Virus record (IMG/VR): IMGVR_UViG_3300045911_000316
Coordinates: 1 to 23,181 of that record
Reading direction: 5' to 3' (one strand)
Source: a virus
DNA: 23,181 nucleotides
In this document: piece by piece, positions 685 to 23,181 of the stretch
Layout of the letters: each line of letters begins with the position of its first letter
How positions within the stretch are numbered: position 1 is the stretch's first letter
The notes under the pieces: generated by a model
Database searches by the model: none
The model's input: only the letters and a program-made list of their open reading frames with translations
Told to the model about the DNA's origin: nothing
Made by a program: the position numbers and the translations under genes

Positions 685-1917
685 TTAGGTGAGTTGGCGG
701 CAGATCTGTGCGCCGAGTCGGCCGTCGACCATGGCCGCGCCGCACAGGATGTCGAGCGAGAGCACGTCGCTCTTGAGGTTGCGGTCGTAGTCGAACACCG
801 CGCGCATCGACAGGTTGCTCGCCTGGTCCTCGATGTACGCCGCGGGCGTGCCCACGGGCAGATCGAGGGGGACGGAGACGAAGGCGAAGCAGTCGGGGTG
901 GAACAGAGCGCCGTGGTTCTGGCGGGTCAGACCGCCGCCGCGGTAGACGTTGATCGTCGCGTTGTCAGCCACGTCCTCGCGGAGCGGCTCCCAGATCGTG
1001 AACGTGCCGGCGCTGCCCGAGGAGGTCACAGCCACCGCGCCCACGACACCGGCGCCGCCCGGACCCTTCACAACGCAGTCCTGGTAGTCGCCGGACGAGC
1101 CGGAGAGGAAGATGCGGACGATGTCGCCGACCTTGAGCGTCACGGCCGCGCCGTTGGCGTTGTCGTAGGGGATGCTCGTGCTGCCCTTGACCAGCGAGGC
1201 GCTGTTCACGAGGCAGGTCGTCATGGTGCCGCTGGTGAACGTCGCGGTGTTGACGTTCTGGCCCATGTAGAGATCGAAGTTCATGATCGGGCCGACGCGG
1301 GCGGCGCGGAGAGCGCTGTCGTCGCCGCTCTTGTCGACGCCGACGAACGCCTCTTGGCTCAGGATCGTGGCCTTCTGCGTGGTGCTGACGATGCCGACGC
1401 GCGGGTTGAGCGGCGTCTTGAGATCGTTCATCGTCTTGTCGCAGTTCGCCCAGTCCGCGATCGTGGTGGGCAGCGCCACGGCACCGGAGCCCGCGCCGAT
1501 CAGGCCAAACTCGGAGGGACCAGCCACGTTCGGGATGTGGAAGAGCTTGGTGAGACCGTACTGGTCGATCTTCTCGCCCATCTCCACCATGCGAGGAGCG
1601 AGCACCTGCTCAGAGAAGTCGACGAGCGACATGGTGCGCTCGCGGTCGGTGATCTTGATCGTCGCGTCGAAGTGCTTCTCGAGGGTGAGCGGGATCGACG
1701 TTTCCTGGATGTCGCGGACGGTCACGGTCGAGCCGTTGTACTCGTCCACAACGCCCTTCGAGCGGCGGCGGATGCTGATGGTCTCGCCGACCTTGGCGCC
1801 CGCGTTCAGCGAGGCCTCGTAGCGGCGGGAGAACAGGCGCTGCGTGACAAGATTGCTCTGGAGGAGCACCAGGGCCTCGCGAGCAATGACAGACGGGGTG
1901 AGAAAGATGTTCGGCAT
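685..1917 (-). CDS. major capsid protein, P22 coat-protein family
   Basis: A 410-residue head shell protein. The N-terminus (MPNIFLTPSVIAREALVLLQ) and the following pattern of a basic RRR motif, a long beta-rich middle and a D-x-D-x-N near the end resemble the P22-coat family of HK97-fold capsid proteins, and the length is close to that family (about 400-430). Residues 240-320 are a Gly, Ser and Thr rich beta segment, plausibly the inserted domain seen in P22-like coats. I chose ATG 1915-1917, with GGAGAG nine bases upstream. A TTG five codons earlier is in frame but sits on the ribosome-binding site itself. It follows the scaffold, the usual scaffold-then-coat order, and would form the icosahedral shell. 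Confidence 0.85.
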   Translation of the reverse strand: MPNIFLTPSVIAREALVLLQSNLVTQRLFSRRYEASLNAGAKVGETISIRRRSKGVVDEYNGSTVTVRDIQETSIPLTLEKHFDATIKITDRERTMSLVDFSEQVLAPRMVEMGEKIDQYGLTKLFHIPNVAGPSEFGLIGAGSGAVALPTTIADWANCDKTMNDLKTPLNPRVGIVSTTQKATILSQEAFVGVDKSGDDSALRAARVGPIMNFDLYMGQNVNTATFTSGTMTTCLVNSASLVKGSTSIPYDNANGAAVTLKVGDIVRIFLSGSSGDYQDCVVKGPGGAGVVGAVAVTSSGSAGTFTIWEPLREDVADNATINVYRGGGLTRQNHGALFHPDCFAFVSVPLDLPVGTPAAYIEDQASNLSMRAVFDYDRNLKSDVLSLDILCGAAMVDGRLGAQICRQLT

Positions 1918-1992
1918 CGGTGGACTCTCCAAAGCGGATCAAACGCACGATGAGTGTACGCAGTTCCGGGAAAGCCCACAGGACCCTCGCCG

Positions 1993-2897: not shown

Positions 2898-4073
2898 TCA
2901 CCTGAGCGCTTCGGCGTCCTGGCGTCGCAGATCAGCAACAGTGTAGCGGGCTCCCCGGTAGTCAGTAAAGCGGTCAAGAGAAAGTCCGCCGTCGCGGAAC
3001 AGGGACGCGCGGGAGGGCCCAAGCACGTCGTCTTGGAACCACCGGGGCTGGCGTCGAAGCCACGACTCGTATGTGAGGGAGGCGGGCACAGTGCCAACGC
3101 GATCGCGAGCCCACTGCTGACGAACCTCGTGGATGCTCTTCCCGGTGCTGCGGGCCATCTCGCGGAAGTCGATCACGCGCTCCTCGCGGGTGCGTGTGTC
3201 CGTGACAAACGGACGCTCACCGGCAATGCCATCGGGCGAGAGCACGGCCACCATGATGCTCCGACAGTTCGGATGGGCCGGAGGCCGCGCGTCAGGTGGA
3301 TACAGGCGCTTGCCGGGCACGTCGTCGGGGATCACGCCACCGGGCAGCGACGCCAGGGCTCCGTCGCGGCCGGCGCACAGGAGACTGGTGCGGCCATCCA
3401 GCACCGAGGTCCATCGCTCGGCCAGAATGATGTCGGCGTTCTCCTCGAACAGCACGTCGCGGGCGACAGATGCGAAGTGAACGGCCGACGTGCGTGCGAT
3501 CGTCTGTGCCTGACGATTCGACAGAGGCAGCACCATTTCCTGGATGCGACGCACCACGGTGTCCCGGTCCACACCGGCCGTGAACGCCGCACGGATCTCG
3601 GTGACAACACGGCCTGCATCGGTGATGCGGTAGCCCCGAATCCACTCCTCAAACGTGCGTCCCGCAAATGGGATGCTCTTGGCCGTCGAGTAGGCGGAAC
3701 TCGGGGCGTCGCGGACCAACAACTCTTTCAGGCCCACCGCCGACAGGATCGCGGCCTTCTGGAAAGCCGCCTCGGCCTCGACCAGGGCGCGGAACTCGAC
3801 ACGGAGAGCCGCCGCCATCTCCGACACGCCTTCGGCGCGGATGGCCGTCGCCTCCTCGATGAGAGAGTCGAGACGACGCGCCTTGCGGGCGCTCGTCCGC
3901 AGACCACCGCGGATGATGGAGTCGAACGCCTTGCTGACCTCGGCGATCACCGCGGCCTCTGACGGGCTCAAGCTGTTCATCGCCCGCTGACCGGCGCCCA
4001 CAAACAGGCGGTTCAGATAGATCGCATGACGAACCTGCGCGTCAAGTAGTCGCGTATTTGCATCGCCCGGCAT
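2898..4073 (-). CDS. phage head morphogenesis protein (SPP1 gp7 / Mu gpF-like minor capsid protein)
   Basis: A 391-residue minor head protein. Residues 40-130 are helical and charged. Residues about 145-275 carry the recognisable head-morphogenesis domain: a helix with ARTSAVHFASVARDVLF (193-209), then WTSVLDGRTSLLC (D226, R228, T229, C233), then a PPAHPNCRS motif (H267, C270, R271). The D-x-R-T and HPNCR motifs are the hallmark of the Mu gpF family, whose members bind the portal and sit inside the head. It begins three bases after the portal stop and precedes the scaffold, the common portal, MuF, scaffold, coat order. The 115-residue C-terminal extension is basic and aromatic with no recognised domain and no clear toxin motif. 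Confidence 0.85.
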   Translation of the reverse strand: MPGDANTRLLDAQVRHAIYLNRLFVGAGQRAMNSLSPSEAAVIAEVSKAFDSIIRGGLRTSARKARRLDSLIEEATAIRAEGVSEMAAALRVEFRALVEAEAAFQKAAILSAVGLKELLVRDAPSSAYSTAKSIPFAGRTFEEWIRGYRITDAGRVVTEIRAAFTAGVDRDTVVRRIQEMVLPLSNRQAQTIARTSAVHFASVARDVLFEENADIILAERWTSVLDGRTSLLCAGRDGALASLPGGVIPDDVPGKRLYPPDARPPAHPNCRSIMVAVLSPDGIAGERPFVTDTRTREERVIDFREMARSTGKSIHEVRQQWARDRVGTVPASLTYESWLRRQPRWFQDDVLGPSRASLFRDGGLSLDRFTDYRGARYTVADLRRQDAEALR

Positions 4074-4076
4074 GGC

Positions 4077-5612
4077 TTACTCCTCATCGCCGGGCTCCGG
4101 CTTGTCCGGGGCGTCCCCACCGGGGTTGGCGTCCTTGCCGCCGTCCTTGGGTGCCCCGGCAGGAACTTCTGGTTCGGGCTTGATAATCGTCGCCAGAGAC
4201 GCGGACTCCTCCTCGATCGCGGAGACCTCCTCCTCAAACGACTTATGGGTGAGGCTGCCGCGCCGCATCAACTCGTGCATGGTGGCGTACGACATCGGAG
4301 CGCCGCTGTTCTTCGCGGTGACAAGCTCCATGAGCTCTTGGCTCGTCATCGTGGGCTCGGCGAAGTCGGTGTCCGGAGAGAACTCCACGGACTCCGGCTC
4401 CAAGCCGCTCATGTGGGCAACCTGCTTGAGCACGGTCTCGAAGCCCTGACCGAGATTCGTCACGATGTTTCGGAGCGTCACCTGCTGGGCCATCTGCCGC
4501 TGACGCAATGCCTCGCCGCTCTCGGGCGCGGTCTTGTCCGTGGCCAGCAACTTCCCGCCCTCCATGTCGAAGCGGTCGTACTCGTCCGCGATCGACTGGC
4601 GCATGAGCGGGATGCCCTGGCCGTCGATGTCGAGGTACCACGCCTTTGCATCGGGGCTGGGAAACGTCCAGATGCCCTCGCCGCCGATCTTTTGCGGCGC
4701 ATCGGTGGACTCGATTCCGGCGATGCAGATCTGAGGATCACCCTTGATGTAGAGCGCCCGGTTGTAGTCAGCGGTCTTGCGGTAGATGGCAAAGGCGCGG
4801 CGGGCGAGCGGGAGCATCGGGATCGCCTGATAGCAGTACCCGATGTCGATGGCGTTGAGCGGGTAGAAGGGGATGAAGTCAAGGGTCTTTCCGCTCACGC
4901 TGATCGTGACCCAGCCGCCGGCGTCCTTGTTATCACCCTCGCTCACCACCTGCAGAGTCGGCGCCTTGTCGTCGCCAGACTCCTTCTCCTCCCACAAACG
5001 CGACTGATAGACGCCGTTGTTCAGGCGCAACTCGCGGTACCGAGTGACCTTCTCGACGTCAAACTCGTCCTCGCCCTCCTCGTCGGAGATTTCGCGGAGC
5101 ACCACAAAGCTCGCGCCACCGCCCTGACGCGCGGTGCGCTCCTGCCAGTTGATCAAGTTCTCGACCGAGTAGGGCACGATCCGCAGCTTCTGGTCGGTGT
5201 CGACATCAATCAGGAGCCCGATGCGGCCGGTCGTCAAGACCTCGGAGGTCGTCATCGACCACAGTTCTTCGAGCGTGGTCCCATCGGGGCACGCCATGTC
5301 GATCAGGTAATCGAGGGAGGCCGGGAGCTTGGCGACGGGAGGACGCGCGTGGATGACGCCCTGGAACCCGGCCAGCGCGGGCTCCACGATCTCCGGGAAC
5401 TCGGCGAACCCGAGGTAGAACGTGTAGGGATCGGAGCCAACACGCTTCCCGCTCTCAAGCACGTCGGCGATCATCGTCGGCATACCCGGAGGCACCGGCA
5501 GGTACGTCGCGGTCGCGCCCTTCACAGCCGTCTCGCCCTCGATGGCGTCGCGCATCAACTGCCACGTCGTCGAACGCTTCTTGTACTCGGGATGTGCTGT
5601 GTTGACGGGCAT
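4077..5612 (-). CDS. portal protein (DUF4055 family)
   Basis: A 511-residue portal protein, the dodecameric ring at the head vertex through which DNA is packaged. The N-terminus has the pattern of DUF4055 portals: a tyrosine-lysine segment, then W-x-L-M-R-D-A-I-x-G with a following YLPVPPGM motif (about residues 10-45). A conserved mid-domain (RIGLLIDVD, about 130) and a helical crown region rich in Gln, Met and Arg (about 355-400) follow. The last 45 residues are an acidic, Pro-rich tail. It starts one base after the preceding stop with only a weak GAAGG site, implying translational coupling. Its place among terminase, MuF and scaffold genes fits. Length is typical for the family (about 450-520). 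Confidence 0.85.
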   Translation of the reverse strand: MPVNTAHPEYKKRSTTWQLMRDAIEGETAVKGATATYLPVPPGMPTMIADVLESGKRVGSDPYTFYLGFAEFPEIVEPALAGFQGVIHARPPVAKLPASLDYLIDMACPDGTTLEELWSMTTSEVLTTGRIGLLIDVDTDQKLRIVPYSVENLINWQERTARQGGGASFVVLREISDEEGEDEFDVEKVTRYRELRLNNGVYQSRLWEEKESGDDKAPTLQVVSEGDNKDAGGWVTISVSGKTLDFIPFYPLNAIDIGYCYQAIPMLPLARRAFAIYRKTADYNRALYIKGDPQICIAGIESTDAPQKIGGEGIWTFPSPDAKAWYLDIDGQGIPLMRQSIADEYDRFDMEGGKLLATDKTAPESGEALRQRQMAQQVTLRNIVTNLGQGFETVLKQVAHMSGLEPESVEFSPDTDFAEPTMTSQELMELVTAKNSGAPMSYATMHELMRRGSLTHKSFEEEVSAIEEESASLATIIKPEPEVPAGAPKDGGKDANPGGDAPDKPEPGDEE

Positions 5613-7066: not shown

Positions 7067-8743
7067 TCAGCCGCGTCGCCATCGGCTCACCCGAACAACC
7101 TCCGCGCGGGCCCGTCGCCACTCCACCACCCGCATCTGGTTCGCGATCGCCCACTTGCTGATCGAGTCGTCGTGGCTGCCCGGGTCCGCGGCGAATGTTC
7201 CATCGGCCTGCAGGCGGAAGGTCATGCACTCAGCAAGGAACTGTCTGTCCATGATCCGCTCCAGCGCGCCATCGGCCTCCATCCACTCGCGGAGACCTTC
7301 GAGCGCGATCGGCCGGGTGATGACGTTGGTCGTCCAGCCGGCCCGGGCAACTCGATTCTCCTCGGCCGACCGATGGCTCGGTGCCGCGCCGTGGTAGTAG
7401 AGCGACCCGCCAGTGTGGTGCGGCTTCTCCAGCCCAAGATCGATCACCTTCTGGATGACGGCGTGGCCGTGGTTCTCTCGCTCGATCCCAACCAGCGCGT
7501 CGTTGTACTGCTTGTGGATGCGGACGATGTGGTCGGCGAGCACCCGCGGCGTGAAGATGCCGTGCAGGGACTTCACCTGCTTGCCGTTGTCGCGCCGCAT
7601 CACGCCGATCCCGCTCGGATCGCAGCCGACCAGACCTTCGGACGTGTCAGCGCCAAGGCAGTAGAGGACGCCCGGCTGAGGCTTCTCCCACTCGACCTCG
7701 TAGCCGCCCGGCAGAACCCGTGCGCCCGCTGGCATAGTCCCACCGTTGGGAGCATCGATCATCTCGGGCTGTCGGCAGAAGTCGCGGATGCGGAGCAACA
7801 CCTGCGGGTCGAAGAATGGTGTGCCGCTCACAAGCCAGCAAGTCTCGTCGTCCTCGGGATACTCCTGCGGGAACAGCCGCTTGAGTTCGCGGCGCTTGCG
7901 ACGCCGCCACTTGATCTGCTCGGGGTCAAGCCCGTGCTTTGCCACCAGACGACGCTCGTCGTCGTCGAGGGTCTTGACGATCTCAACCGCCTCCTCGGGG
8001 TCGGCGATCTTGTCGCGGTTAATGTGGTCGACGAACCAGGGGAGGAAGATCGGGGTCCAGTCGTTCTTGCCCTGCTTCGCCTCCTGATACATCTCCCTGA
8101 ACATCTCGCTGCCGTTGGGAGTGGTTTCGAGCACCATCTCGCCGTGCGACGCCGCCTCGCTCAGACCAGTCAGGATGTCGCGCTGCTTCATCACCTGGTT
8201 GAAGCCGAGACAGGACCATGCGACTTCCGACCAGTGGACGCGGGAAAGCGTGTCGCCGCGGCCCACGCCACGACCGGCGGCGGTGCCGACGTAGAAGAGC
8301 GAGTTGAGGGCCGGGAACTCCAGCTTGTACTGGTTGCCGATGCCCTTGATCGCCGGCGCCTCTGGGTCGCGCTGGTGCATCAGCACGGGGATGCGGAAGA
8401 TGCGGGCCGTGACCTCGCCATCCTGGGCAAGAGTGAGAACGTTGATGTTGCGGTTCCGGCTCGCCAGCGCATACGACTGCGCCTGCTCCACGGTGGTGAA
8501 CCCGCCTCGGCGGTACTTCAACAGCAAGTAGCGAGGGAGCTTGCCCTTCTCCACGGCCGCTCGCTTGGCCTCGAGGTACTTGATCTGAATGGGCCGGAGC
8601 TCGAACGGGATCACCCGGTTGTCGACCGTTCGGATCTGCAGATTGCGGCGCGCGAAGTCGATGAACGACTCGTCCTTCTTCGCCGGAAGCTTGGAGGCGA
8701 TGCTCGCGCGAAACTGCCGGAGTAGTTCGGTGCCATCACTCAC
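7067..8743 (-). CDS. terminase large subunit
   Basis: A 558-residue DNA-packaging motor: an N-terminal ATPase pumps DNA through the portal and a C-terminal RNase H-like nuclease cuts the concatemer. ATPase features are a variant Walker A (KYRRGGFTT, residues 76-84), an acidic Walker B-like strand with catalytic Glu (RVHWSEVAW, E173) and the coupling motif ETTPNG (206-211). Nuclease acidic residues are D366 in GADTSEG, E421/E423 in GIERENHG and the H-D-D at 524-526. Length is typical. It starts at GTG 8741-8743, overlapping the small subunit by eight bases with GGAGCC upstream. It is followed by the membrane-protein trio rather than directly by the portal. Confidence 0.93.
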   Translation of the reverse strand: MSDGTELLRQFRASIASKLPAKKDESFIDFARRNLQIRTVDNRVIPFELRPIQIKYLEAKRAAVEKGKLPRYLLLKYRRGGFTTVEQAQSYALASRNRNINVLTLAQDGEVTARIFRIPVLMHQRDPEAPAIKGIGNQYKLEFPALNSLFYVGTAAGRGVGRGDTLSRVHWSEVAWSCLGFNQVMKQRDILTGLSEAASHGEMVLETTPNGSEMFREMYQEAKQGKNDWTPIFLPWFVDHINRDKIADPEEAVEIVKTLDDDERRLVAKHGLDPEQIKWRRRKRRELKRLFPQEYPEDDETCWLVSGTPFFDPQVLLRIRDFCRQPEMIDAPNGGTMPAGARVLPGGYEVEWEKPQPGVLYCLGADTSEGLVGCDPSGIGVMRRDNGKQVKSLHGIFTPRVLADHIVRIHKQYNDALVGIERENHGHAVIQKVIDLGLEKPHHTGGSLYYHGAAPSHRSAEENRVARAGWTTNVITRPIALEGLREWMEADGALERIMDRQFLAECMTFRLQADGTFAADPGSHDDSISKWAIANQMRVVEWRRARAEVVRVSRWRRG

Positions 8744-9555: not shown

Positions 9556-10476
9556 TTACGCGGATGCGACGATCTCGCGACAGATCGCAAGCAGCTTCTC
9601 GGCGGGCTCATCGCCAAGCACGTCACGGACGTTCTCGGCCTCCTGACCGGTGAAGGCGAAGTTGAGGCGGAACGGCTGCTCGAACGCGGCGCTGATGCGG
9701 CCGCGCTCCAACTCCGATGTCGCGGCCTCCAGTTTCTCCTTCCGCTCCACCACCTGAGCGGCGGCGGCGCGGGTCATGGCGAACGCGTTGATCCCGGCCT
9801 CGCCCTTCTGCGAAGGCAACTCGACCAGCTTGGTGCTCGCCTCTTCCTTGTCCGCGATGTCTCCCTGGGCGGCGTCGCCTCGCTCGGGAGTCCACGCGTT
9901 ATGGAACTCCTCGCCCGCCAGCGCCTCGGCCGCGGGCAGTTCATCCAGAAGATCGTTCAGTTCGGCGTCGCTGATCATCAGCGAGTCCTGTGCCCACTCG
10001 ATCGCGCCGAGTTGCTGCAGGTCCTTCAAGACCTCGGTGCTCAACTCGATGTCCTCGGACCCGCGAGCGCGGTTGTGCCGAAGGGTCGCAATCCGCATCT
10101 GCTCGTCGGTCATGTCGACGAACACCACGGGGATCTGGCTCATCCCGAGTTTGCGAGCAACACGCCACCGGTGCTCACCGTCAACGATCTGCCGGCTCGA
10201 CCGGTGCACGATCACGGGCTGCGTGAACCCGTCCTCCTGGATGCTGCGGGTCAAGAGTTCGAGCGTCGCCTCGTCCTGGCGGTTCGGGTTGTAGGTGTTG
10301 GGCTTGACGCTCTCGGTCGCCACGTACTCGATCTGCAGCGACTTGAGGCGGACGGCGTTCTTCTGCACCGCATGGAGACCGCGCTTCGCGATCTTGTCGG
10401 TCACGATCGCGGCCGTCGCCTCGGGGCTGGTGTTGGTTTGAACGCGGGACGTCCCGCCAAGGGGTTCGTTGCTCAC
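9556..10476 (-). CDS. ParB/IbrB-like nuclease-fold protein, copy 2
   Basis: A 306-residue ParB/sulfiredoxin-fold protein. The core spans about residues 44-150: YNPNRQ (62-67), the signature DGEHRWR (99-105) that binds phosphates or nucleotides in this fold, and a conserved IATLRHNRARG block (129-139). Residues 1-43 are a Thr/Ala-rich extension absent from its neighbour. Residues 180-250 are helical and variable. The C-terminus (LNFAFTGQEAENVRDVLG, then EKLLAICRE) again matches the neighbouring paralogue. It shares ATGA with the preceding gene, so the two are co-translated. Members include plasmid-partition ParB, IbrB and DNA-modification-associated proteins. There is no partition ATPase gene here, so a partition role is unlikely. 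Confidence 0.8.
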   Translation of the reverse strand: MSNEPLGGTSRVQTNTSPEATAAIVTDKIAKRGLHAVQKNAVRLKSLQIEYVATESVKPNTYNPNRQDEATLELLTRSIQEDGFTQPVIVHRSSRQIVDGEHRWRVARKLGMSQIPVVFVDMTDEQMRIATLRHNRARGSEDIELSTEVLKDLQQLGAIEWAQDSLMISDAELNDLLDELPAAEALAGEEFHNAWTPERGDAAQGDIADKEEASTKLVELPSQKGEAGINAFAMTRAAAAQVVERKEKLEAATSELERGRISAAFEQPFRLNFAFTGQEAENVRDVLGDEPAEKLLAICREIVASA

Positions 10477-11258
10477 GGCTGATGGCTCCTCTCGCGACAG
10501 ATCTGCAACAACTTCTCGACCGGCCTGTTCCCGAGCGCCTTGCGGACGATCCCGGCCTCCTCACCAGTGAACACCAGGCGCAGGCGGTACACGCTGGTGT
10601 CCTTCTCGACCTTGGCTCGCTCCTGCTCCGTCTTGGCCGCGCGAAGGCGGGCCTCGCGCGCCCGGATCACGTCCTGCACGCTGGCGGTCTGGTGCTCCTC
10701 GACCTTGCCGCCCTCCTTGGCGATCATGGACTTGAGGGTGTCCTGATCGGCGTTCGCCAGCGCCGCGGCCTGATCGTTGCTCATCCCGTCCTGGTGATCG
10801 ACGGCATCGAGGAAGTTGCCGAGCTCGATGTCGTCCATTTCGAGCGAGTCTTTCAGCCACTCGGTCGCGCCCAGCTTAGCGAGGTCGCGGAGAACGGCCG
10901 CTGCGAGTTCGACGTCCTCTCCACCGCGCGCCCGGTTGTGGCGAAGCGTCGCGATGCGGGCCTGCGCCGGCGTCATGTCGGTCAGGACGACGGGAATCTC
11001 CTCGAACCCGAGCGCCTTGCACGCTCGCCACCGGTGCTCCCCGTCGACGATCGTCATGGTGCTGCGGATCACGACAACAGGCTGGGTCATCCCATCCTCG
11101 TCGATGCTCTTGCACAGCAACGTGAAGTCGTGCTCACTCTGGCGGTTGGGGTTGTAGTCGTTCGGCTTCACGGCGTCGATGGGCATGTACTCGACCTTGA
11201 GTTGGCCGAGTGCGACGTTGCCCTTCACCACCGGTCCCGCGTTCTTGCCCTTCGCCAT
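10473..11258 (-). CDS. ParB/IbrB-like nuclease-fold protein, copy 1
   Basis: A 261-residue paralogue of the next gene. The ParB/sulfiredoxin core has DYNPNRQ (34-40), DGEHRWR (72-78) and IATLRHNRARG (102-112), identical in the last block to copy 2. A helical region with Lys/Glu-rich segments (about 160-220) precedes a conserved C-terminal domain (LRLVFTGEEAGIVRKALG, then EKLLQICRE). It starts at ATG 11256-11258 behind GAGGAGC, 12 bases after the oxygenase stop, and overlaps copy 2 by four bases. In known IbrA-IbrB pairs a ParB-fold protein sits beside a PAPS-reductase-like protein, and such a protein lies two genes upstream here. Two copies suggest a heteromer or divergence after tandem duplication. 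Confidence 0.8.
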   Translation of the reverse strand: MAKGKNAGPVVKGNVALGQLKVEYMPIDAVKPNDYNPNRQSEHDFTLLCKSIDEDGMTQPVVVIRSTMTIVDGEHRWRACKALGFEEIPVVLTDMTPAQARIATLRHNRARGGEDVELAAAVLRDLAKLGATEWLKDSLEMDDIELGNFLDAVDHQDGMSNDQAAALANADQDTLKSMIAKEGGKVEEHQTASVQDVIRAREARLRAAKTEQERAKVEKDTSVYRLRLVFTGEEAGIVRKALGNRPVEKLLQICRERSHQP

Positions 11259-11270
11259 CGCGCTTGCTCC

Positions 11271-11957
11271 TCACTTCTTGCCGTAAAGATACCCGGCCTC
11301 AGCCGACTTCGGCGCCGCACCGGGCGCAGAGAACGACATCGGCACGCTGATCCGAAGCGGCGACCCGTCGACCGGGCCAACCGCGTGCGCGATCTGAGAA
11401 AGATCGCCGTAGATGAGGCCGATCGACGGCCCGAGAACGGTGTGGAGCTCGCCGCCCTCCACGAACTTGAACCGCCCGCTGTGGAGTCCGAAAGGGAACA
11501 GCACCGCCGTGATCGGCGTGCTGTCGTAGTGCCACTCGTACCCGCGGCTCCCACGGGGCAGGATGTTCACGTTGATCGCCTGCTTCCACCCGATCCGCGG
11601 CTCTCGCTCGAGCGGGACCCGGTGAAGCTGGTTCAGGAACAGGGCGATCGCGTGCCAGAACGAGCGGAGCGCCGGAAGGTGCTCGCTGATGAGGTCGCCA
11701 TCGGCCACGAAGTAGTCGAGGCCGGTGATCTCCGGGTCGTCGTCGCCCGCCGGCTTCTCCAGCGACCCCAGCGCATGATCGGGCGCGGCCTTGACGTGCC
11801 GGGCCATCCCGATGGCGCGGGCGCACGCGCTCATCGCGCGATGGAACTCCACCCAGCCGATGGCCTCGACGATGAAGGTCTCGACCTCGGGCACGGTGCA
11901 CACTCGGGCACGGCCACCGAAGTAGTCGTGGAGCTTGGGATAGGGGCTTGGAGGCAT
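11271..11957 (-). CDS. Fe(II)/2-oxoglutarate-dependent oxygenase, possible DNA-base (TET/JBP-like) hydroxylase
   Basis: A 228-residue predicted dioxygenase. The iron-binding facial triad is visible: H143 and D145 in EWHYDSTPITAVLF, distal H191 in GDLSQIAHAVGPV, and R202 in PLRISVPMSF, eleven residues after the distal His, to bind 2-oxoglutarate. A GGEL turn lies between (168-171). The double-stranded beta-helix occupies about 125-212. Residues 1-100 are helical with no clear match. Phage TET/JBP enzymes have this compact arrangement and oxidise thymine or 5-methylcytosine in DNA, but amino-acid or small-molecule hydroxylases share the triad, so the substrate is unproven. Its ATG overlaps the PP-loop gene stop as TGATG, so translation is coupled. 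All catalytic residues are present. Confidence 0.75.
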   Translation of the reverse strand: MPPSPYPKLHDYFGGRARVCTVPEVETFIVEAIGWVEFHRAMSACARAIGMARHVKAAPDHALGSLEKPAGDDDPEITGLDYFVADGDLISEHLPALRSFWHAIALFLNQLHRVPLEREPRIGWKQAINVNILPRGSRGYEWHYDSTPITAVLFPFGLHSGRFKFVEGGELHTVLGPSIGLIYGDLSQIAHAVGPVDGSPLRISVPMSFSAPGAAPKSAEAGYLYGKK

Positions 11958-13126
11958 CAGAAGCTGGGCGTTCCGTTCCATGTGCCGGCTCCGGGACGAA
12001 AGAACTCGGGCTCCATCGGGGGAAACTTCGATGCGCTCAGCAACAGGATCCGCAAGCTGAACGGATCGCCATTGAACATGATCTCCGTGAGGCGCTTCCA
12101 GGACACGATCTTCGCCCCGCCGCACTCGTGACACGGAGTGACCTCCGGCACCGGCCCCGTGCTGTGACGCGCGTGGTGTGCCAGAACGTGATCCTTGACG
12201 GCGACGCTTCGATCTCGAATCCATTGCGCGGGAGCCTCGTTGATGCAGAGTCGGTGGTAGCACTGTTCCCAAGTTTCGTCGAGGCGGCGTCGCGGAACTG
12301 CGACGTGGCTCCCGAACTGAGCGGCTTGGCGGACGCCCGCAAGTCGACGGGTCACGCGGTCGAACCACTTGGGCCAGGCGCTGGCGGCGAATCGCAGGTT
12401 CTTGACCGCCGCGGTACTCATCGTCACCGGGCCGATGCGGAGTTCGCGGGCCGGGATGCCCATGCGGTGCATCACGTCGTAGGCCTTGTTGTAGTCCCAG
12501 CCGTTCTCCTTGATCGCCTTCCACACGTCGCTGTCGGTCCAGTCGTAGATCGGCCGCAGCTTCCGGTAGGGGACGCCGCTCCGCATCGCCGCACCGGTCA
12601 GGGCGCCGCCGCTGCTCACCAGACCGAGCATTCGCTTGCTGCTCTCGCTGACGCGCAGGCCCACCACGTCGATCAGATCCTTGCCGGGAGTCACCGGGAA
12701 CCGCGCGGGGCTCACGATCGCCTCGATGTTCTTCTCCGCGATGTCGACGGCGAAGTCAGGAGGCTGGTACACCCACTGGTCGCGCGGAATCGTCGGATCG
12801 CAGACCCACCAGAACGGCGCGGCTCGGTTGAAGACGTTGACCATGGGCTGCCGCGCCATGAGCCAGTGCATCCGAACCTCGGGCCGCTGGGACAGGCGAA
12901 GCAGGTACTCGTGGGTGCCCGGATAGAGAATCTCCTCCTCGCGGAACACCACGTCGACCGGGAGCGCGCCGGCCTGCTCCGCGGCGATCAGCGTCAACTC
13001 GGTGCACACCGCACTGTCCTTGCCGCCGCTCACGGAGACCACGACGCGGTGCCCCTCCTGGAAGCACTCGCTGATGCGACTGATGGCCGCGTCGAACACG
13101 TTGTCCCCGGTGTAGATTCGCCTCAT
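11957..13126 (-). CDS. PAPS reductase-family PP-loop protein, IbrA-like
   Basis: A 389-residue adenine-nucleotide alpha-hydrolase. The PP-loop SGGKDS is at 33-38. GLRVSESS at 156-163 and PIYDWTDSDVW at 192-202 are the further motifs of the PAPS reductase/DndC/ATP-sulfurylase group. FWWVCDP (105-111) followed by W118 resembles the aromatic block of IbrA/DUF3440 proteins. A C-x-x-C (332-335, CHEC) with a further Cys at 294 may bind metal. No C-terminal ECGLH motif of true assimilatory PAPS reductases is seen, so simple sulfate reduction is unlikely. It overlaps the methyltransferase by ATGA and the oxygenase by TGATG. An activated-sulfur, adenylation or DNA-modification role is plausible. Confidence 0.75.
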   Translation of the reverse strand: MRRIYTGDNVFDAAISRISECFQEGHRVVVSVSGGKDSAVCTELTLIAAEQAGALPVDVVFREEEILYPGTHEYLLRLSQRPEVRMHWLMARQPMVNVFNRAAPFWWVCDPTIPRDQWVYQPPDFAVDIAEKNIEAIVSPARFPVTPGKDLIDVVGLRVSESSKRMLGLVSSGGALTGAAMRSGVPYRKLRPIYDWTDSDVWKAIKENGWDYNKAYDVMHRMGIPARELRIGPVTMSTAAVKNLRFAASAWPKWFDRVTRRLAGVRQAAQFGSHVAVPRRRLDETWEQCYHRLCINEAPAQWIRDRSVAVKDHVLAHHARHSTGPVPEVTPCHECGGAKIVSWKRLTEIMFNGDPFSLRILLLSASKFPPMEPEFFRPGAGTWNGTPSF

Positions 13127-13875
13127 CGACCGAGCTCCAGAACGGCATACGAGAAGTCGGGTCGCACGATCAGGCCGGTCCTGCGTGCGATCGCTGCTTC
13201 ACATGGTAGCAGACGTGCGACGCGACGGGCAAGCCATCCGGAGTAAGACCCGATGCTGCGGCTCAGCACGGGGCGGGAGCGGCCGACAAACTCCGCGACG
13301 TACTCGAGATCGTCGGCGCGGTAGGACATCGGGCTGGTGCCGTCGACGTTCATCCGCACCATGCCGTAGCGGCCGGACTCGAAGCGGTCGGGCGCGGGGC
13401 AGGCGATCACCATGCGGCAGCGCTCGGCACCCATCTCGGCCAGGGCGCGGACCACGCGGGCGAATCCGACGATGTAGGGCGAGCAGTAGAGCATCAGGAT
13501 CAGATCGGGCCGGGTCGGAATCGTGATCTCGCGGCAGTACTGCTCCGCGGTCATCTGCCGGTACTCGGTGTGCCAGCCCGGAACGGGGCGCCGGCGCGCG
13601 ATCTCGAGCATCTTCTCGCTCGGGTCGACGCCCTCGTAGAACCCGCTGTACCAGATGTCGTTGCAGAGCCGCAGTCCGAGACCGGTTCCACACCCGATGT
13701 CCAGGACCCGCATCGGGGCGCGGCCTCTCATCAGGTTGCGGACGAACTCGTCCTCGGCGGCGTCGATGGGTCGCTGATAGACCCCGTCGTATTGCTCCGC
13801 GACCGCGTCGTACGCGGCTGCCGGGTTGATGGGGCCGACACGGGACGCAGAGCGATGTTCTTGGACGACAGCCAT
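13123..13875 (-). CDS. class I SAM-dependent methyltransferase
   Basis: A 250-residue Rossmann-fold methyltransferase. Motif I, VLDIGCGTG, is at 57-65 and binds S-adenosylmethionine. An acidic residue at the end of strand two (D84 in GVDPSEKML) would contact the ribose. A strand-four region (RPDLILMLYCSPYIV) takes the place of the DNA-methylase DPPY/NPPF motif. Lack of that motif argues against a standard DNA adenine or cytosine methylase. The layout resembles small-molecule or hypermodified-nucleotide methyltransferases (Methyltransf_11/25 type). The start ATG 13873-13875 has a strong GGAGG eight bases upstream and begins inside the nuclease gene. The stop shares ATGA with the PP-loop gene. 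Confidence 0.75.
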   Translation of the reverse strand: MAVVQEHRSASRVGPINPAAAYDAVAEQYDGVYQRPIDAAEDEFVRNLMRGRAPMRVLDIGCGTGLGLRLCNDIWYSGFYEGVDPSEKMLEIARRRPVPGWHTEYRQMTAEQYCREITIPTRPDLILMLYCSPYIVGFARVVRALAEMGAERCRMVIACPAPDRFESGRYGMVRMNVDGTSPMSYRADDLEYVAEFVGRSRPVLSRSIGSYSGWLARRVARLLPCEAAIARRTGLIVRPDFSYAVLELGR

Positions 13876-14210
13876 TCGCGGACCTCCTCGACGGACTCCA
13901 CCACCAGGACCTCGCAGCCCGCTTGCTGGAGTACGCCCCCGGTGTGGATCTGCAGCGGTGTGCGCACCTCGCCGGGGCGCTTGACCTCGATCCACACGCT
14001 GTGCCCGCGAAGGGCCTCGCACGTGAAGTACAGATCGGGGATGCCACCGCCCTGCATCCTGTTCCCGTGCATCTTCCTCACGAAGTGGTGCGGGACGCGC
14101 TGCAGGAGCGCGATGATCCGCGTCGTGATGTTCCGCTCGAGTGGGCGTGGCATATTGGAAAGGGGCTGGTCGGGCAGTGCCTCAGCCAGCCCCTGGACGT
14201 TTCCCGGCAT
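13731..14210 (-). CDS. VRR-NUC-type (PD-(D/E)XK) nuclease
   Basis: A 159-residue small nuclease of the VRR-NUC family, related to Holliday-junction and flap-processing nucleases. The fold signature is clear: GGGIPDLYF with D59, WIEVKRPG with E75 and K77, then RTPLQ (Q87) and QQAGCEVLVV. The core covers about residues 25-115, typical for stand-alone phage VRR-NUC proteins. ATG 14208-14210 is preferred because the upstream small ORF ends there as TGATG; another in-frame ATG lies at 14151-14153. The last 47 residues (Ser/Thr/Arg/Pro rich) overlap the methyltransferase out of phase by 145 bases and are probably not part of the fold. It may process DNA during replication or act with the modification cassette. 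Confidence 0.75.
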   Translation of the reverse strand: MPGNVQGLAEALPDQPLSNMPRPLERNITTRIIALLQRVPHHFVRKMHGNRMQGGGIPDLYFTCEALRGHSVWIEVKRPGEVRTPLQIHTGGVLQQAGCEVLVVESVEEVREWLSSKNIALRPVSAPSTRQPRTTRSRSNTTGSISDPSTPPRTSSSAT

Positions 14211-20826: not shown

Positions 20827-23181
20827 TCAGTCACCCTCCTCGAACTTCTGGACGAATCGATGAAGGGGCGCACACTCCTTAGTCGCGTTTCTGCAAATGA
20901 AGGCCCGCTCGCGGGCACGGGTCATCGCCACGTAGAAGAGCCGCACGACCTCGTCGCGGAGAGGCCCGGGACCGCTGTTCCACTGGCGTGATCCGGCGGC
21001 GCTGAGGTCGGGGAAGATGAAGGTGCAGTCGGCCTCCGCGCCCTTGAACGAGTTGTGTACGACAATCCGACCAGACACGTAGTGCTCGTGGGGGTCGACA
21101 GAAAGACTGAACACCGTACCGGAATACGGCTCTCTCGTGATCGTCGCCAAGACGGCGTTCGGAGCCTCCTTGCCTCGCGGAAACTCCGACTCAACGACGG
21201 GGACCTCCATCATGCCATCAATCAGGTTGGCAGCAATCGTCTCGAACCAGTAGCGATTCCGCTTCTGCACAACGCCGTCTCGTGAGTAAAGGGGGGCGTC
21301 GATAAAGAGGCCGAGATCGGCCAGTAGCCGCAGTGCGTTCGATCCACTCGACTCCATAAGCCGAGAGTGAACGGCTTGTAGTTGATCTGAGTTCAAGAGT
21401 TGTCCGCGAGAGCCCTCGAATCGCAAAGATGGGATGCCGTACCTCGCCTGATAGTACGACTCGTGCATCGATGCCTGCTCGCGAGTGTCATAAACACCGA
21501 TGATCCAGGCCGCGTGACCCCGCTCGGTAGACAGGCGACCTTTGACGCCGCCGCCGACCGCTGCGCTGCACATGCCGATACGCCACCAGCCGCCTCGTCG
21601 CATCAAGTACACCACGAACTTGTTGTAAAACGACTCGGCAAACCGGACTCGCATCCGGTGCGTCGGGGTGACACGACACCTCGCGAAACCGGCTTGAACG
21701 ACCACCAGTTGTCCATCGAACTGAGAGTGGCCCTTGCGGAACGCGTACCCAGCACCGGTATCCCCCGGAGCGTTGCGCCCGCGAGTGATGTCGTTGCATG
21801 AGGGGTTGAAACTCACGAGTCGATGGATGCTGGAATCGATCTCTCCGATAGGGACGTAGCCCGATGTAGTCAGGATGGGCTCGTCGGGAGGAGAACAGTG
21901 GATGGTTCCAACGAACACCCGCGGAGCCTCTACAAGCCCTTCTAAGCCACGCGAGATCACCCCCACCGGATACTCCACCACCTTCTTCGGAGTGGCCAGG
22001 AGCCTTCCCTGCCACCACTGCGCGGCCTCTGCAACACTCCTCTCCCCGGCCCACACCGCACGCAACTCCGCGTGAACCGCGTCCTCGAACCAGTCCTCGA
22101 TCTCCTCCTCGAGCACGGTCGCGGAGTCCCGCTCCTCCTTGCTCATCGCCGGCGCATCGTCGTCGCCAAACGGATCGTCACCCTTGTCGGTGAGCGGATT
22201 GTCGCCCATGAAAAGCTCGCCCGGTTCATCGCCCTCGTCGGCCTCGCCCAAGCCCTCGATGCGCTTCTTGGCCCCGCGCCGGAGCACACCCTTCGCGCTC
22301 ATGGGGCCAACGAACTTGGCGACGTCCTTGATCGTCCATGGAGCCTTGTTCGGGTTGTCGTGGCAGGGTCGCACAAATGCGAGTAGGCGGGCCAGCATCG
22401 ACAGGCCCTTGCCAGACTGGCCGAGCGGATTCCAGTCGCGACGGTACTTCCGCCACGGGTTGCTGAACGGGATGTGCTTGCGCCGCAGGTTCCCGATCAG
22501 GCTGTTCAGCATGTACGAGCACGAGGTCTGGAACATGACCGAGCGACCGGTCTTGAGAAGCTGCTCGCACTCGTCGACCAGAGGATCGGTGTCGTAGATC
22601 GTGCCCTCACGCCACCCCATCTCGCCGCGCACATCCTCGTCGGCGATCGCCTCTTTCCGGGGCGCATACTCGATGGGCTCGTAGGTCGACAGGTGATCGC
22701 GGACCCAGCCCACGGCGACGCGGAGAACCCGCTCGGGCACGCGGTACGACTGGCTCAGGATGCGGCGGTGCGTGGCCGGCACGCTCGGATCGGAGAACAG
22801 GGAAGGATCGGCTCCTCGCCATGTGTAGAGCGCCTGCCAGGGGTCGCCCACGACGATCGTGGCCTTCGCCTGCTTACCCCACTTCTGGATCAGAGCGTAC
22901 TCAAGGGCGCTCAGATCCTGGGCCTCGTCCACCATGATCACCGCGGGATTGCCCGGCGCGTGATACACGGTGTTGAGTGCGTTCTCGATCAGATCCGTGA
23001 AGTCGATGACGCCCTGCTCCTGCTTGAACGCATCCCACTCGTCGGCGAAGCGAGCCACGTCGTCGTCCCAGTCGTCGCGGGGCACCCGCTTGTGGCGCAG
23101 GATTTCCATGCGCTGCAGGAGCGCGTCGCCATCGGTCTCGATGTTGACATCGGCGCGGCGGTCCCACGCGTTCTCCTCTCC
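20827..23181 (-). CDS. UvrD/Rep-type superfamily 1 DNA helicase with intein, 5' end beyond window
   Basis: An ATP-driven 3'-5' DNA helicase of the UvrD/PcrA/Rep class, probably for phage replication or recombination. The frame is open to the right edge, so the N-terminus with Walker A is not visible. Counting from Met at 23107-23109: motif II DEAQD (61-65), motif III GDPWQALYTWRGA (88-100), motif IV SYRVPERVL (121-129), motif V split as GTIH (401-404) and SFKGAEAD (687-694), motif VI RLFYVAMTRAR (723-733). A 282-residue intein separates the two halves of motif V, so splicing is required for activity. An acidic insertion with DEGDEPG and DDPFGDDD lies at about 290-320. It ends in TGA one base before the next ATG. 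Confidence 0.9.
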   Translation of the reverse strand, partial: GEENAWDRRADVNIETDGDALLQRMEILRHKRVPRDDWDDDVARFADEWDAFKQEQGVIDFTDLIENALNTVYHAPGNPAVIMVDEAQDLSALEYALIQKWGKQAKATIVVGDPWQALYTWRGADPSLFSDPSVPATHRRILSQSYRVPERVLRVAVGWVRDHLSTYEPIEYAPRKEAIADEDVRGEMGWREGTIYDTDPLVDECEQLLKTGRSVMFQTSCSYMLNSLIGNLRRKHIPFSNPWRKYRRDWNPLGQSGKGLSMLARLLAFVRPCHDNPNKAPWTIKDVAKFVGPMSAKGVLRRGAKKRIEGLGEADEGDEPGELFMGDNPLTDKGDDPFGDDDAPAMSKEERDSATVLEEEIEDWFEDAVHAELRAVWAGERSVAEAAQWWQGRLLATPKKVVEYPVGVISRGLEGLVEAPRVFVGTIHCSPPDEPILTTSGYVPIGEIDSSIHRLVSFNPSCNDITRGRNAPGDTGAGYAFRKGHSQFDGQLVVVQAGFARCRVTPTHRMRVRFAESFYNKFVVYLMRRGGWWRIGMCSAAVGGGVKGRLSTERGHAAWIIGVYDTREQASMHESYYQARYGIPSLRFEGSRGQLLNSDQLQAVHSRLMESSGSNALRLLADLGLFIDAPLYSRDGVVQKRNRYWFETIAANLIDGMMEVPVVESEFPRGKEAPNAVLATITREPYSGTVFSLSVDPHEHYVSGRIVVHNSFKGAEADCTFIFPDLSAAGSRQWNSGPGPLRDEVVRLFYVAMTRARERAFICRNATKECAPLHRFVQKFEEGD
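21052..21897 (-). mobile_element. intein (Hint domain) with degenerate GIY-YIG-like insertion
   Basis: A 282-residue protein-splicing element. Using the same helicase numbering: splice-site Cys405 opens block A (CSPPDEPILTTSGYVPIGEI); block B is CRVTPTHRMRV with T481 and H484; block F is GTVFSLSVDPHEHYVSG; block G is RIVVHN, giving penultimate His685 and Asn686; the +1 extein residue is Ser687. All splicing residues are present, so it is probably active. Residues 498-558 contain FVVYLMRRGGWWRIG, R525 and E550 then YG, the order of a GIY-YIG nuclease, though the second Tyr is replaced. The DNA is less GC-rich (32 of 60 at 21361-21420 against 43 of 60 at 22681-22740), suggesting separate origin. 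Confidence 0.88.

Follow-up and report, generated by a model that had tools for sequence, protein, structure and literature searches.

A class 1 intein in motif V of a phage UvrD-type helicase with a predicted GIY-YIG-like nuclease domain

What interrupts a core motif of a phage helicase gene, and what does the large middle part of the interrupting element do? These questions are raised by the 3' part of a UvrD-type gene in the window, by which we mean the whole stretch of 23,181 nucleotides analyzed here. The helicase can be aligned along its length with those of the phages MMP7, Riverbug and PMBT28. Its N-terminal part, including the Walker A region, is absent from the record, because the 5' end of the gene runs off the contig at position 23181. 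Genes for a P22-like coat protein, a MuF-type head protein, a portal and a terminase large subunit identify the window as a fragment of a tailed phage (Table 1). Also in the window, two adjacent and overlapping ParB-like genes (9556-10476 and 10473-11258, minus strand) adjoin a PAPS-reductase-like gene (11957-13126) and a methyltransferase gene (13123-14022), and these genes possibly form a DNA-modification group.

The first-pass annotation of the window had proposed an intein exactly between GTIH and SFKGAEAD, and the intein ends that we determined are identical to it to the base. Translation of positions 20827-23181 (minus strand) reads ...PRVFVGTIH/CSPPDEPILTT...YVSGRIVVHN/SFKGAEADCTFIF... 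(here and below, slashes mark the intein ends), and the insert, exactly 846 nucleotides or 282 codons long, keeps the reading frame and contains no stops. All splice residues that had been called intact are found in the translation, namely Cys1, the block B motif T-P-T-H (77-80), His281-Asn282 and the +1 Ser. We compared them with a set of 30 related inteins from motif II, III and V sites of helicases, one TerL-like gene, one transposase-like gene and two methyltransferase genes. Cys1 is found in all 29 complete members, block B has its His in 30/30 and its Thr in 29/30, the terminal Asn is universal (30/30) and the penultimate His is kept in 26 of the 30. An AlphaFold2 model of the whole intein, made with a 20-member alignment, is confident (pLDDT 92.3, pTM 0.88), and its splicing part matches solved inteins and the hedgehog Hint domain with VIA Z values of 14-18. 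In a search with Hint-domain profiles, suggested earlier as a check, Pfam Intein_splicing matched at 17.2 bits, below the cut-off of 35.8 bits, and NCBIfam returned no match. Standard annotation probably overlooks this element for that reason. Sequence and model together support the view that the insert at 21052-21897 is a class 1 intein with a Hint fold, and from well-known intein chemistry we infer that it splices.

Table 1. Positions of the features discussed, in window coordinates.
Feature	Position	Strand	Basis
UvrD-type (superfamily 1) phage helicase gene, intein host (extein)	20827..23181	-	PF00580, E 2.4e-14; phrog_1967, E 4e-37
N-extein junction GTIH, first half of helicase motif V	21898..21909	-	Translation; intein-free homologues read GTIHSVKGGEAD
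Intein, 282 aa, class 1 (Cys1 ... His281-Asn282 / Ser+1)	21052..21897	-	Translation, relatives, AF2 model, structure matches
N-terminal splicing (Hint) segment, residues 1-92	21622..21897	-	AF2 model, PDB intein matches, residue counts
Cys1 codon	21895-21897	-	
Block B TPTH (residues 77-80)	21658-21669	-	
Predicted inserted GIY-YIG-like nuclease domain, residues 93-212	21262..21621	-	AF2 model, PDB and viral fold matches, 30/30 invariance
Tyr97	21607-21609	-	
R-I-G 106-108	21574-21582	-	
Arg121	21535-21537	-	
Glu146	21460-21462	-	
C-terminal splicing (Hint) segment, residues 213-282, end IVVHN	21052..21261	-	PF14890 C-terminal half; PDB profile matches to KlbA and DnaX inteins
C-extein junction SFKGAEAD, second half of motif V	21028..21051	-	Translation, helicase homologues; +1 Ser at 21049-21051
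P22-like coat protein	685-1932	-	
MuF-type head protein	2898-4073	-	
Portal	4077-5612	-	
Terminase large subunit	7067-8743	-	

Relatives of the element are found in several hosts. In a tblastn search of phage records, the window intein matched over its full length the methyltransferase inteins of Streptococcus suis prophages (32% identity, E 4e-34) and the annotated UvrD inteins of SPO1 (gp34.33) and CampHawk (30%, E about 1e-28). Eight viral contigs matched a DNA pattern written for the C-terminal junction at motif V, and all 8 carry the end of a related intein; an alignment-based scan of viral contigs added further same-site inteins. Counting the window, no fewer than 12 viral contigs have an intein at T-x-H/S-x-KG, with identities mostly of 40-55%. 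The E value of 4e-34 for relatives, the 11 other contigs with the same junction and the confident Hint-fold model place the identification as an intein beyond chance. Viral-contig scans with a single protein (intein or helicase) as query gave no match, nor did a DNA pattern for YLM...RxG.

A domain that was inserted permanently and is never spliced out would be an alternative to an intein, and a folded but unspliced domain at this site in a homologous helicase would have told against the first-pass annotation. Such a case was not seen among the same-site inserts, and Cys1, TxxH, HN and the +1 Ser are kept in 12/12 of them. The insert splits a core helicase motif, and the same family occurs at unrelated sites and in unrelated hosts (TerL-like, transposase-like and methyltransferase genes). 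We therefore reject a permanent insertion, which appears extremely improbable.

The site itself is variably occupied. The helicases of Meiothermus phage MMP7 (VGTIHSVKGGEAD) and Thermus phage Riverbug (IGTIHSVKGGEAD) have no insert, and their junctions align with that of the window without a residue gained or lost. With a DNA pattern of motif V in its joined form (GTIH-S-V-KG) we found 48 viral contigs in which the motif is uninterrupted, and no match to the family HMM was found anywhere in the reading frames of these 48 empty-site helicases. The comparison with intein-free homologues proposed in the first-pass annotation, together with the 11 same-site relatives and the predicted Hint fold, supports the identity of the intein, its exact place in motif V and the intactness of its splice residues. 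The closest empty-site helicases share 43-44% identity with that of the window, more than the intein-bearing ones do (38% at most), although the figures rest on two types of alignment, local and global, and compare only roughly. Motif V occupancy is therefore patchy. In a tree of 25 inteins those of motif V form one clade (support 100/99), with the TerL-like intein as nearest outsider (98/97). Among 84,980 cellular genomes we found no motif V intein, the junction pattern giving 19 matches with 0 inteins and the A2 alignment scan none. By the patterns used, the motif V site looks viral.

About 120 of the 282 residues went unremarked in the first-pass annotation, and in the model they make up an additional domain whose fold is that of a nuclease. 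Residues 93-212 are predicted as a separate unit of strand, strand, helix, strand, helix and long helix. Modelled alone, this domain reaches a pLDDT of 93.5 and has a beta-beta-alpha-beta-alpha core (E3-10, E13-20, H26-33, E38-45, H48-62). Foldseek found nothing significant for it in the PDB (best E 1.5). A second look at the PDB candidates with VIA, in which 206 chains were aligned, placed GIY-YIG proteins in all top four rows. The best was BH0048 (1zg2; Z 5.3 over 76 residues), a bacterial GIY-YIG structure of the Slx1 family according to PMC1564403. Three structures of Slx1 followed (Z 4.4, 4.2 and 3.6), with the next row at 2.7; these supporting values, 5.3 and below, are modest. Among predicted viral structures, the two best matches were a methyltransferase and a helicase (E 6e-10 and 7e-9), both host-protein types of this intein family, and the weaker rows with informative names were mostly GIY-YIG, group I intron endonuclease, T5orf172, SegE-like, Hef-like and MUG113 proteins. 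Pfam GIY-YIG families did not match any of 20 members of the intein family. Profile comparison with hhalign against sets of T4 GIY-YIG and ICP1 T5orf172 proteins, with column-shuffle controls, gave no match either, but the known relatives that served as positive control also failed to match each other.

Five positions of this domain, Tyr97, Arg106, Gly108, Arg121 and Glu146, are invariant in all 30 related inteins. The conserved Tyr lies on strand 1, R-x-G on strand 2, Arg on helix 1 and Glu on the helix after strand 3, which is the order expected for GIY-YIG proteins. By its predicted fold, that is by the modelled core topology and the conserved Tyr, Gly, Arg and Glu, the middle domain belongs to the GIY-YIG superfamily. 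The second motif departs from the canonical Tyr-Ile-Gly of the PF01541 type, because an Arg replaces the first Tyr to give R-[IV]-G in 30/30, and for this reason we call the domain GIY-YIG-like rather than a canonical member. A LAGLIDADG or HNH domain was considered and rejected, since no such motif was seen and the topology differs. More broadly, a nuclease of another fold (HNH, PD-(D/E)XK/VSR or LAGLIDADG) whose likeness to GIY-YIG is coincidental would be in line with the weak PDB scores and the missing sequence-level match. It is hard to reconcile with a confident model of GIY-YIG topology, with GIY-YIG proteins as best structural rows in two libraries and with conserved residues in the expected order, and we regard it as quite improbable.

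The middle domain is under strong purifying selection. In three pairs of inteins, whose inserts are 74-77% identical, the insert has pN values of 0.15-0.18 against near-saturated pS values of 0.79-0.89, and in these pairs it is constrained at least as much as the splicing part. This constraint bears on whether the domain is (still) a nuclease, since a splicing and vertically inherited intein could instead carry a domain that is GIY-YIG-like in fold but serves in DNA binding or has a structural role. Loss of nuclease activity is frequent among inteins, and the Arg that stands for the YIG tyrosine throughout the family would fit such a role. Against it are the strength of selection and the invariance of Tyr97, Gly108, Arg121 and Glu146. 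In addition, ICP1 T5orf172 sequences have KVG or KIG at the YIG position, and among T5orf172 domains is the active nuclease Odn of ICP1, which keeps the Arg and Glu (PMC8263062).

Vertical inheritance, the other half of that alternative, can be judged from the distribution of the inteins. The window intein is 52% identical to that of contig L018, while the helicases that carry them are 27% identical. The intein and helicase trees conflict, but not significantly, as co-inheritance with the helicase is not rejected by the AU test (p 0.12). Lateral transfer is thus suggested by the contrast in identities rather than proven, and patchy occupancy speaks against strictly vertical descent. Taken as a whole, a vertically inherited intein with a non-nuclease domain seems unlikely.

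Several further intein sites in the same gene of related phages had also been overlooked. Contigs L015, L018, L021 and L028 have inteins at motifs III and V of one helicase gene, and the paired inteins within a gene are only 24-36% identical. A single UvrD-type gene of a 147.6-kb viral record (IMGVR_UViG_3300028920_000035; L022:3-5366) carries three inteins, at motifs II, III and V, all with the YLM...RxG domain. Inteins occur at the Walker A motif and motif III in L030 (2346-5240), and at motifs II and III in L032 (1494-5003). The L030 insert lies within Walker A and is intein-like (GPPG/C...HN/TGKT), and the motif II insert of L032 (VDE/C...HN/CQD) is longer and has, by eye only, LAGLIDADG-like motifs. 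The penultimate His has been lost from the motif III intein of L018 and L028, where Glu or Gly precedes the Asn, but not from their motif V intein. Members without this His are also seen in a terminase-like gene (L027:3501-4376, ending Q-N) and a transposase-like gene (L031:3501-4352, ending C-N). In Bacillus phage phiBsKO1-1 (L008) the helicase with a SPO1-type intein is split over several frames with stops, which reflects either decay or sequencing errors. Related inteins are also found near motif III in UvrD genes on cyanobacterial plasmids.

We consider it probable that the element is a mobile, self-excising class 1 intein at motif V whose divergent GIY-YIG-like nuclease cuts the intein-free allele for homing. 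After translation and Hint folding, residues 1-92 and 213-282 would excise the intein by class 1 splicing, joining ...GTIH to SFKG... and rebuilding motif V. The GIY-YIG-like domain of the released intein could then cut the intein-free motif V allele of a co-infecting phage, and repair of the cut allele would copy the intein in. This reading draws support, at the level of sequence and modelling, from the exact insertion, the splice residues, both predicted folds, the invariant positions, purifying selection, the single clade and patchy occupancy; cutting and homing in particular are suggested by the fold, invariance, selection and occupancy. Since motif V is interrupted, helicase activity should depend on splicing. 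Splicing that senses a signal and so switches the helicase on would be compatible with a homing intein. The motif V insertion would inactivate the unspliced helicase, and for DnaB inteins of mycobacteria, splicing that responds to the environment has been reported (PMC6195587). No regulatory feature was seen here, and the patchy occupancy is what a mobile element would show if it were neutral once spliced out, so that we give such a switch very little weight. With somewhat less confidence than for the homing intein itself, we favor a wider picture, in which a virus-borne intein lineage spreads with a GIY-YIG-like homing nuclease instead of LAGLIDADG or HNH. It would have colonized several active-site motifs of one helicase gene (II, III and V), in some cases occupying two or three of them together, and would also have entered terminase-like, transposase-like and methyltransferase genes, with the motif V site confined to viral helicases.

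In phages, GIY-YIG nucleases drive group I introns and free-standing homing genes. According to a survey of the superfamily in 2006, no intein was known to contain one (PMC1564403), and later reviews mention GIY-YIG only in general terms, as a homing family. No paper on a GIY-YIG intein came up in phrase searches, although coverage of subscription papers was thin and an earlier report is possible. What is added here is the prediction that a viral intein family, one with an allele at motif V, carries a divergent nuclease domain of GIY-YIG-like type. A GIY-YIG nuclease fold inside an intein would represent an undescribed route by which such parasites spread between viruses. If these inteins cut DNA, the fold would have a further self-splicing context, in phages as well studied as SPO1. 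The set also offers a natural series, in which related inteins have entered one gene at several of its catalytic motifs.

The closest known systems are the SPO1 gp34.33 and CampHawk inteins, which belong to the same family over their full length (about 30% identity, E 8e-29; PMC3868849). SPO1 gp34.33 shares with the window the UvrD-type host, the middle domain and the invariant Y, R-x-G, R and E, but its intein sits at motif III (GDDDQ/C...HN/SMYSFRG) and is a different allele; accessible records and papers state no nuclease type for it. The inteins of the S. suis prophage and of a Providencia plasmid have the same domain and about 31-32% identity over the full length, but reside in an adenine-specific DNA methyltransferase (QHEP/C...HN/CL) and not in a helicase. 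With T5orf172/MUG113 and classical GIY-YIG nucleases (I-TevI and Seg of T4, Odn of ICP1) the window domain has in common the fold and the order of Tyr, Arg and Glu, and with T5orf172 also the absence of the YIG tyrosine. It differs in R-x-G for YIG, in sequence similarity below detection and in its place inside an intein, the known nucleases being free-standing or in group I introns. In homing inteins of the LAGLIDADG and HNH types, such as PI-SceI and the mycobacteriophage TerL inteins, the Hint domain is likewise interrupted by a nuclease domain, whereas the window insert is shorter, with about 120 amino acids, and by its predicted fold comes from another nuclease superfamily.
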